Below are positions 1,305 to 5,744 of a DNA stretch of 7,280 bases, one piece after another. The first letter of the stretch is position 1, and each line of letters starts with the position of its first letter. Below the pieces are notes generated by a model that worked only from the letters and a program-made list of their open reading frames with translations, searched no databases and was not told the origin of the DNA. The position numbers and the translations under genes are program-made. This stretch comes from Candidatus Tectimicrobiota bacterium. GTDB taxonomy: Bacteria; JACPSX01. The stretch is taken from assembly GCA_016193065.1 (NCBI GenBank), contig JACPSX010000024.1, positions 1 through 7,280 on the forward strand, read 5' to 3'.

Positions 1305-2465
1305 ATGAGGATCCTCTATCCGGTCGGCGAGGTCTTCCCGAGCCCGACGGCCCGCTCGATCCAGATCATGAACACCTGCGCGGCGCTGGCCCGCAGGGGC
1401 AACCAGGTGTTCCTGCTGCTGGGAAAGAAGCGGGGGATCGACGCCGCCCGCTTGCTCGAATATTACGGGCTGCTGCCGACCCCGGGGCTTGAGATCGAGT
1501 TTCTGCCCATCCTGAGGCCCTCGGGGCAGAGGGTCTGGCGCCCGAGCTGGGGTGGCCTTTTCCTGTTCTTTTGCCGCCGGCGCCTGGTCCGGCTGCTGGC
1601 GGATTCTACCGGGAAGAAGGATACGGTCGTCTTTGTCCGCCATCTGAAGCTGGCCGTGAATCTGCGCCGGAAATACAAAAAACTGCTGGAAACCCCGCTG
1701 ATTTTCGAGGCCCACGAGATTTTCTCCCACGAGAAGCCAGCGGGCTCCCGTCTGCGGACCCTGGAAGAGAGAGCCTATGGCGGGGTGGACGGCGTGGTGG
1801 CGATCACGGCCCATCTGGCCAGGATGATCGTGGAGACCTTCTCTGTGCGCGTTCCCACGGCGGTTGTGCCTGATGGAACGCGCCTCTTCACCCTCTCCCC
1901 TTTGAATTCCCAGACTCCCGCCCGGATCGTTTACTCGGGCCAGCTCTACGAGTGGAAGGGGGTTGACTGCCTGCTGCAGGCCATGGCGGAAGTGCCGGGG
2001 GCCCGCCTGGCCATCCTGGGAGGAGGAGCCGGCGGGGCGGAGCAACTGCAAAGAAAGGCCCGGTCCCTCGGGATTGAAGATCGTCTGGATTTCCTGGGAC
2101 AGGTGCCCCACCGGGAAGTGGTGAAGTCTCTGCGGGAGGCGGACGTTTTTGTTTTGCCCGCATCCGGAAGTCCCATCTCCCGTTTCTGGACGTCCCCATT
2201 GAAGCTCTTCGAATACATGGCGGCGGGGCGTCCGGTGGTGGCCTCCGATCTACCCTCCCTGCGGGAAATCCTGCGGCACGAGGAAAATGCGCTGCTGGTG
2301 GAGCCCGGGAATCCCCGGGCGCTGGCCGCAGCCATAAACCGGATTCTGGCCGACCGCGGGTTGGCCCAGCGGCTGGCTGGGCAGGCACTTGCCGATGTGA
2401 GAGAGTATACGTGGGATGCGAGAGCGGAAAGGCTGGAAAGATTTTTCGCTGAACTCCTGACTTGA
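1305..2465 (+). CDS. Glycosyltransferase, GT4-like (GT-B fold, group 1)
   Basis: A 386-residue retaining-type glycosyltransferase of usual length. The N-terminal Rossmann domain opens with MRILYPVGEVFPSPTARSIQ (1-20) and includes FEAHEIF (134-140), typical of GT4 acceptor-side loops. The C-terminal nucleotide-sugar domain starts with YSGQLYEWKG (210-219), followed by LGQVPHREV (264-272), then SPLKLFEYMAAGRPVVASD (297-315) and ENALLVEPGNP (327-337). E303 corresponds to the second Glu of the EX7E motif. The first Glu position is Trp (295), a variant seen in the 'SPLKLFEYMA' subgroup. No signal peptide or membrane segment is evident, so it is probably cytosolic or membrane-peripheral. The ribosome binding site is GAGGGGGAG at 1288-1296. 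Its place before kdsB suggests envelope polysaccharide or lipopolysaccharide work, but donor and acceptor cannot be told. A broken copy of its 5' end lies at 268. Confidence 0.9.
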   Translation: MRILYPVGEVFPSPTARSIQIMNTCAALARRGNQVFLLLGKKRGIDAARLLEYYGLLPTPGLEIEFLPILRPSGQRVWRPSWGGLFLFFCRRRLVRLLADSTGKKDTVVFVRHLKLAVNLRRKYKKLLETPLIFEAHEIFSHEKPAGSRLRTLEERAYGGVDGVVAITAHLARMIVETFSVRVPTAVVPDGTRLFTLSPLNSQTPARIVYSGQLYEWKGVDCLLQAMAEVPGARLAILGGGAGGAEQLQRKARSLGIEDRLDFLGQVPHREVVKSLREADVFVLPASGSPISRFWTSPLKLFEYMAAGRPVVASDLPSLREILRHEENALLVEPGNPRALAAAINRILADRGLAQRLAGQALADVREYTWDARAERLERFFAELLT

Positions 2466-2490
2466 TTTCGTCTCCTGCCCGGTGTAAAGT
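2462..2490 (+). promoter_or_regulatory. Weak candidate promoter before kdsB
   Basis: TTGATT (2462-2467) and TAAAGT (2485-2490) are separated by 17 bp, each matching the sigma-70 consensus at 4 of 6 positions. They fall in the about 90-base gap between the glycosyltransferase stop and the likely kdsB start. This would let kdsB-pyrG-kdsA be expressed independently of the toxin-antitoxin/glycosyltransferase patch. Such matches also occur by chance. Confidence 0.3.
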
Positions 2491-2498
2491 AGTGGCTC

Positions 2499-2551
2499 AT
2501 GAAACTCGTAGTTTTCCCTGGGCTGCATTGCCGAGCGATGGAGGAGGGACC

Positions 2552-2555
<4 letters not shown>
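2499..2555 (+). CDS. Possible 18-codon leader ORF overlapping the kdsB start
   Basis: ATG 2499 opens an 18-residue frame (MKLVVFPGLHCRAMEEGP) whose TGA (2553-2555) overlaps the inferred CTG start of kdsB (2552-2554) in a CTGA junction. The kdsB Shine-Dalgarno lies inside this ORF. The arrangement could couple translation of kdsB to the leader. Its own ribosome binding site (GGTGTAAAG region) is weak, and I recognise no family. It may be chance. Confidence 0.2.
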
Positions 2556-4994
<2,439 letters not shown>

Positions 4995-5015: not shown

Positions 5016-5744
5016 GTGAGCCGGGAAGTACCCGTTGGTTCCGTGATCTTGGGGGGTGGGAACCCGCTGGTCCTGATTGCGGGCCCGTGCGTCATCGAGT
5101 CCGAGCGGGACACCCTGGAAATTGCCCGGCGGCTCAAAGAGATCACGGCGGCGGCTGGAGTCCCCCTGATCTTTAAGGCCTCTTACGACAAGGCCAACCG
5201 CACTTCCATCCGCTCGTTCCGGGGACCGGGACCGGAGAGGGGCCTGCGGGTTTTGATGCGGGTCCGGGAGGATCTCGGGGTTCCGGTTCTCTCCGACGTC
5301 CACGAAACCGACCAGGTTTATGAAGCAGGCCAGGTTCTCGACGTGCTGCAGATACCGGCCTTTCTCTGCCGCCAGACGGACCTGGTCGTGGCGGCGGCCC
5401 GCACGGGTAAGGTGGTGAACGCAGAGCGCGGGATTTCTTTCGGCTACAACAACCTGGTGGTCGATTTCCGTTCTCTGGTGATCATGGCGGAACTCGGCTA
5501 TCCCGTGGTCTTCGATGCCACCCACAGCGTGCAGATCCCGGCAGGGGCCGGCACAGCTTCCGGCGGAAACCGGGAGTTCATCGCCCCTCTGTCCCGGGCT
5601 GCGGTGGCCGTGGGCTGCGATGCGCTCTTCGTCGAGGTCCACCCGGACCCCGACAAAGCCCTGAGCGATGGCCCGAACTCCCTCAAACTCGAGGACCTGC
5701 CCGATCTCCTCCGGCAAGTCAAGGCCATCGCGGCTGCCAGATGA
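5016..5744 (+). CDS. kdsA: 3-deoxy-8-phosphooctulonate (Kdo-8-P) synthase with internal ~29-residue deletion
   Basis: KdsA condenses PEP with arabinose-5-phosphate to Kdo-8-phosphate in a TIM barrel. Starts at GTG 5016 behind GAGAGGTG (5003-5010). Family motifs are clear: IAGPCVIES (C25, the metal-ligand Cys of metal-dependent KdsAs), [12 protein letters not shown] (K54, K59, N61, R62), RGPG, DVHE (D94), [30 protein letters not shown] (H170), VEVHPDP (E207) and SDGPNSL (D218). The protein is only 242 residues instead of about 270-285. Aligned from memory to E. coli KdsA, GKVVN (131-135) jumps straight to [11 protein letters not shown]. The VKKPQF...KVIL stretch is gone, including K138 (E. coli numbering), the following helix and most of the next barrel strand. 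The frame is kept across the junction at about 5420-5424, and everything after aligns normally. It may be inactive, atypical or a sequence/assembly error; identity as KdsA is certain. Confidence 0.93.

Follow-up and report, generated by a model that had tools for sequence, protein, structure and literature searches.

An in-frame 29-residue gap in a metal-type kdsA gene that is probably not the working gene of its population

We analyzed a 7,280-nt stretch of DNA (the window) that makes up an entire contig (C8) of a 2.9-Mb bacterial genome assembled from a metagenome. The assembly consists of 294 contigs and is 86.3% complete and 0.95% contaminated. The window carries genes for the synthesis and activation of Kdo, a sugar of lipopolysaccharide for which KdsA is an essential enzyme, with the following features.

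2462 to 3307, forward strand: kdsB, CMP-Kdo synthetase, intact; true start probably near 2552
3264 to 4994, forward strand: pyrG, CTP synthase, intact; true start probably near 3354
5016 to 5744, forward strand: kdsA (3-deoxy-8-phosphooctulonate synthase) with an in-frame 29-residue gap; 242 aa; identified by HMM and PDB sequence matches
5016 to 5420, forward strand: part of kdsA before the junction, beta1 to beta5; Cys25, Lys54, Lys59, Asn61, Arg62, and Asp94 retained
5415 to 5432, forward strand: junction V-N-A-E-R-G; 87-base gap in or beside the GCA codon at 5421 to 5423
5424 to 5741, forward strand: part of kdsA after the junction, beta7 and beta8; Arg138 (E. coli R168), His170, Glu207, and Asp218 retained

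The kdsA reading frame starts with GTG, has no internal stop codons, and is the sole kdsA within the window. Toward the left end, a 129-bp direct repeat (251 to 379 and 1288 to 1416, 89% identical) duplicates the start of a glycosyltransferase gene (1305 to 2465) upstream as a truncated fragment, and a Phd-type antitoxin/VapC-type PIN toxin pair (615 to 866 and 863 to 1276) sits between the repeat copies. At the left contig end, frame 3 of positions 3 to 149 appears by eye to encode the C-terminal end of another PIN-domain protein (DALQLAAALV...FVCLDQRLREAA). Elsewhere in the assembly, contig C1 (2452 to 8304) carries type III-D-like CRISPR effector genes (Csx7 and Csx10 families, TIGR03986).

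To assign the kdsA product to a family, we used the whole-protein score, which passes both NCBIfam cut-offs for KDO8P synthase: 341 bits with NF003543 (cut-off, 242) and 325.6 bits with TIGR01362, slightly above its cut-off of 314. Both matches were split in two pieces, and PDB KdsA sequences likewise aligned in two pieces, which met at residues 135 to 137. Outside the gap, the protein is 54 to 67% identical to its relatives and retains all other invariant columns. Like metal-dependent KdsA of the Aquifex aeolicus type (Cys-His-Glu-Asp), it keeps the metal ligands C25, H170, E207, and D218. It also retains the contacts to A5P and PEP except K138, with the substrate-binding residues K55, K60, N62, R63, D95, and R168 of the E. 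coli enzyme present as K54, K59, N61, R62, D94, and R138. Unlike that class, it lacks 29 residues, from the end of beta5, where K138 sits, through helix alpha5 and strand beta6. The window sequence is an ordinary metal-type kdsA minus one helix-plus-strand unit (alpha5-beta6).

The size of the gap was evident from the spacing between the asparagine and the ERG motif that meet at the junction. In a MAFFT alignment, this spacing is 30 residues in 79 of 84 relatives and 28 to 35 in the other five, versus a single residue in the window protein; all 84 relatives carry the segment that it is missing. The loss amounts to 29 residues, or 87 bases, in a single in-frame gap. An earlier note on this DNA had described a clean in-frame deletion of about 29 residues at 5400 to 5445, and those coordinates do bracket the junction at about 5421 to 5423. 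The shift in residue numbering that it gave relative to E. coli was reproduced by a structural alignment of the predicted model (residues 1 to 242) to E. coli KdsA (1gg0, chain residues 2 to 274), in which the offset grows from 1 to 32 between the first and last residues. None of the 84 aligned relatives has alanine at the columns that flank the junction (after N and before ERG), and a degenerate version of the junction pattern did not occur in shuffles of the window. A hybrid codon (GTN + ACA giving GCA) is a suggestion at most for the odd alanine; ACA is rare here (5% of threonine codons). The junction lies mid-contig, away from the contig ends. No direct repeat was seen at the breakpoints in the DNA of relatives, where the lost piece is unique sequence.

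Helix alpha5, strand beta6, and the KKGQF motif all fall in the lost piece; the motif contains E. coli K138, a ligand of the PEP phosphate. Five residues of the missing segment (in Geomonas numbering, K137, K138, Q140, F141, and K153) do not vary among 55 full-length relatives; they include the PEP-phosphate lysine (E. coli K138) of the KKxQF motif, a motif that the window protein does not have. This second lysine of the motif is equivalent to Lys133 in Neisseria meningitidis KdsA (constant offset of 5). Docking and simulation of that enzyme indicate that Lys133 and Arg163 contact the PEP phosphate and that Lys133 ranks among the residues that contribute most to inhibitor binding (PMC6650799). 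Our literature search on K138 or in-frame KdsA deletions returned no relevant paper. The alignment and the structural models bear out the earlier description of the missing piece as K138, the helix after it, and most of the next strand, and the invariant columns outside the gap agree with the claim that the remaining catalytic residues are all kept. The 242-aa product encoded by this sequence is probably unable to make Kdo-8-phosphate.

Despite this loss, it is conceivable that the gap is a genuine, fixed deletion and that the product works as a (beta/alpha)7 barrel, with the start of beta5 fused to the end of beta6 and Arg138 replacing the missing lysine. The gap is in frame and equals one alpha-beta unit, and the frame and the other invariant residues are preserved. 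AlphaFold predicted seven core barrel strands for the window protein versus eight for a Geomonas control, in which the equivalent of the gap forms a helix (residues 144 to 155) and a strand (residues 162 to 166) that are both gone from the window model. The model superposes on solved KdsA structures with an rmsd of 1.3 to 1.5 Å over 225 to 242 residues. However, AlphaFold tends to return the parent fold after deletions of this kind, so the superposition supports folding of the protein only weakly and may merely copy the parent. Confidence also collapses beside the junction: pLDDT falls below 50 at residues 140 to 146, just past it, and the control has no such segment. The structure prediction that the earlier note had proposed for judging whether a closed barrel is possible gave these seven core strands, with low confidence beside the junction. 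The invariance of the lysine and of KKGQF in relatives also argues against a working barrel.

In a first collection, we searched the window KdsA in 386 genomes, consisting of its own and 385 others. The same gap was found in none of the 385; the best matches listed break off near residue 139 and resume near residue 130, meaning that the segment is present. In a second collection, the gap was not found among the best 80 of at least 594 matches, and for complete matches these loci span approximately 795 to 810 bases per 236 to 241 matched residues, which again means that the segment is present. The junction pattern had no matches in the four genomes from the phylum of the best-matching genome. 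Its one match in viral contigs lay in an unrelated protein and was discarded. The uniqueness of the gap is judged against relatives beyond the organism's own phylum, which is the main limit of the comparison, as the genomes searched included no other member of its genus, family, order, class, or phylum. The source genome belongs to a very isolated lineage in the searched collection or to an unplaced one. Such isolation is in keeping with a working barrel, since the comparisons reach distant relatives only. Nevertheless, no relative examined in either collection shares the gap, which speaks against the earlier suggestion of an altered but working barrel, and we regard a fixed deletion with a working product as improbable. 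Narrower still, it seems very improbable that a deeply isolated lineage has a naturally shortened, active seven-stranded KDO8P synthase that does without the otherwise invariant lysine that binds PEP.

We then considered what the rest of the genome implies about Kdo. Using a full-length KdsA as the query, we found no second kdsA in the 86%-complete assembly; the matches were the window kdsA and one gene on contig C201. The latter was rejected as a second copy. Although it shares the superfamily and barrel of KdsA and is 34 to 39% identical in parts, it encodes a full-length, 346-aa type I-beta DAHP synthase (AroF-like), with the N-terminal extension typical of DAHP synthase and a role in another pathway. 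The second kdsA raised by the earlier note therefore survives only for the missing part of the genome. In contrast to kdsA, the rest of the pathway is undamaged. KdsD and KdsC are intact and adjoin on contig C196, and contig C227 encodes an intact WaaA with BamA, LpxD, FabZ, LpxA, LpxI, LpxB, LpxK, and a late acyltransferase. A suspected split of lpxA on C227 was rejected, as the gene is intact. Because KdsB, KdsC, KdsD, WaaA, and LpxA, -B, -D, -I, and -K are intact, the organism, on this gene content, appears still to make Kdo-lipid A.

An intact pathway without a second kdsA in the assembly would suit a working barrel. The lack of a second copy in the assembled part of the genome would also suit a true null deletion, in which case the organism would tolerate the loss of Kdo or possess a nonhomologous replacement. 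However, intact WaaA, KdsB, KdsC, and KdsD are unexpected after long abandonment of Kdo, and kdsA itself shows no other decay. A fixed null allele does not square with the combination of an intact pathway, an otherwise undecayed kdsA, and a missing invariant ligand. We consider a true null deletion unlikely, and a defective allele fixed in an organism with intact Kdo-lipid A genes is hard to credit.

Because the pathway is kept and kdsA is otherwise undecayed, the gap is most likely not the working gene of the population. We think it probable that an error in local assembly or in the library, or else a defective allele, lies behind it. Either would be likelier than a new kind of enzyme, given that the pathway is intact and the gap is in no relative examined. 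What sets this kdsA apart is one in-frame gap of 87 bases, seen in this assembly alone among the sequences compared, that removes alpha5-beta6 with the PEP-binding lysine. Local misassembly or library error at the junction has somewhat less than an even chance of being the cause. The other candidate, a genuine and recent defective allele whose function may be supplied by an intact copy or strain outside the assembly, is more doubtful. Local defects or damaged genes do occur in the assembly, as seen in a conserved family-4 uracil-DNA glycosylase gene (contig C201, 827 to 1498) with a one-base frameshift at about 1427 to 1440, near the HPA motif, that looks like one C missing from a short run. 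Some evidence counts against an artifact or defective allele. No direct repeat or contig end accounts for misassembly at the junction, and the gap is exactly in frame (one in three for a random event) and is almost exactly one structural unit. In addition, approximately 20 other conserved genes of the assembly that we inspected have no comparable gap.

Among the four options in the earlier note, the single clean deletion on which they rest stands, and a working altered barrel is disfavored. A simple collapse of 87 bases is also disfavored, because the lost piece is unique and there is no repeat at the junction, which leaves room for other local misassembly. If the enzyme did work, it would show that a TIM barrel can stay functional after losing an alpha-beta unit along with a substrate ligand that is universally conserved. 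More probably, the case is a cautionary one: when only one metagenome assembly shows an in-frame gap, the gap can mimic an evolved variant, and the reads should be checked before it is interpreted.
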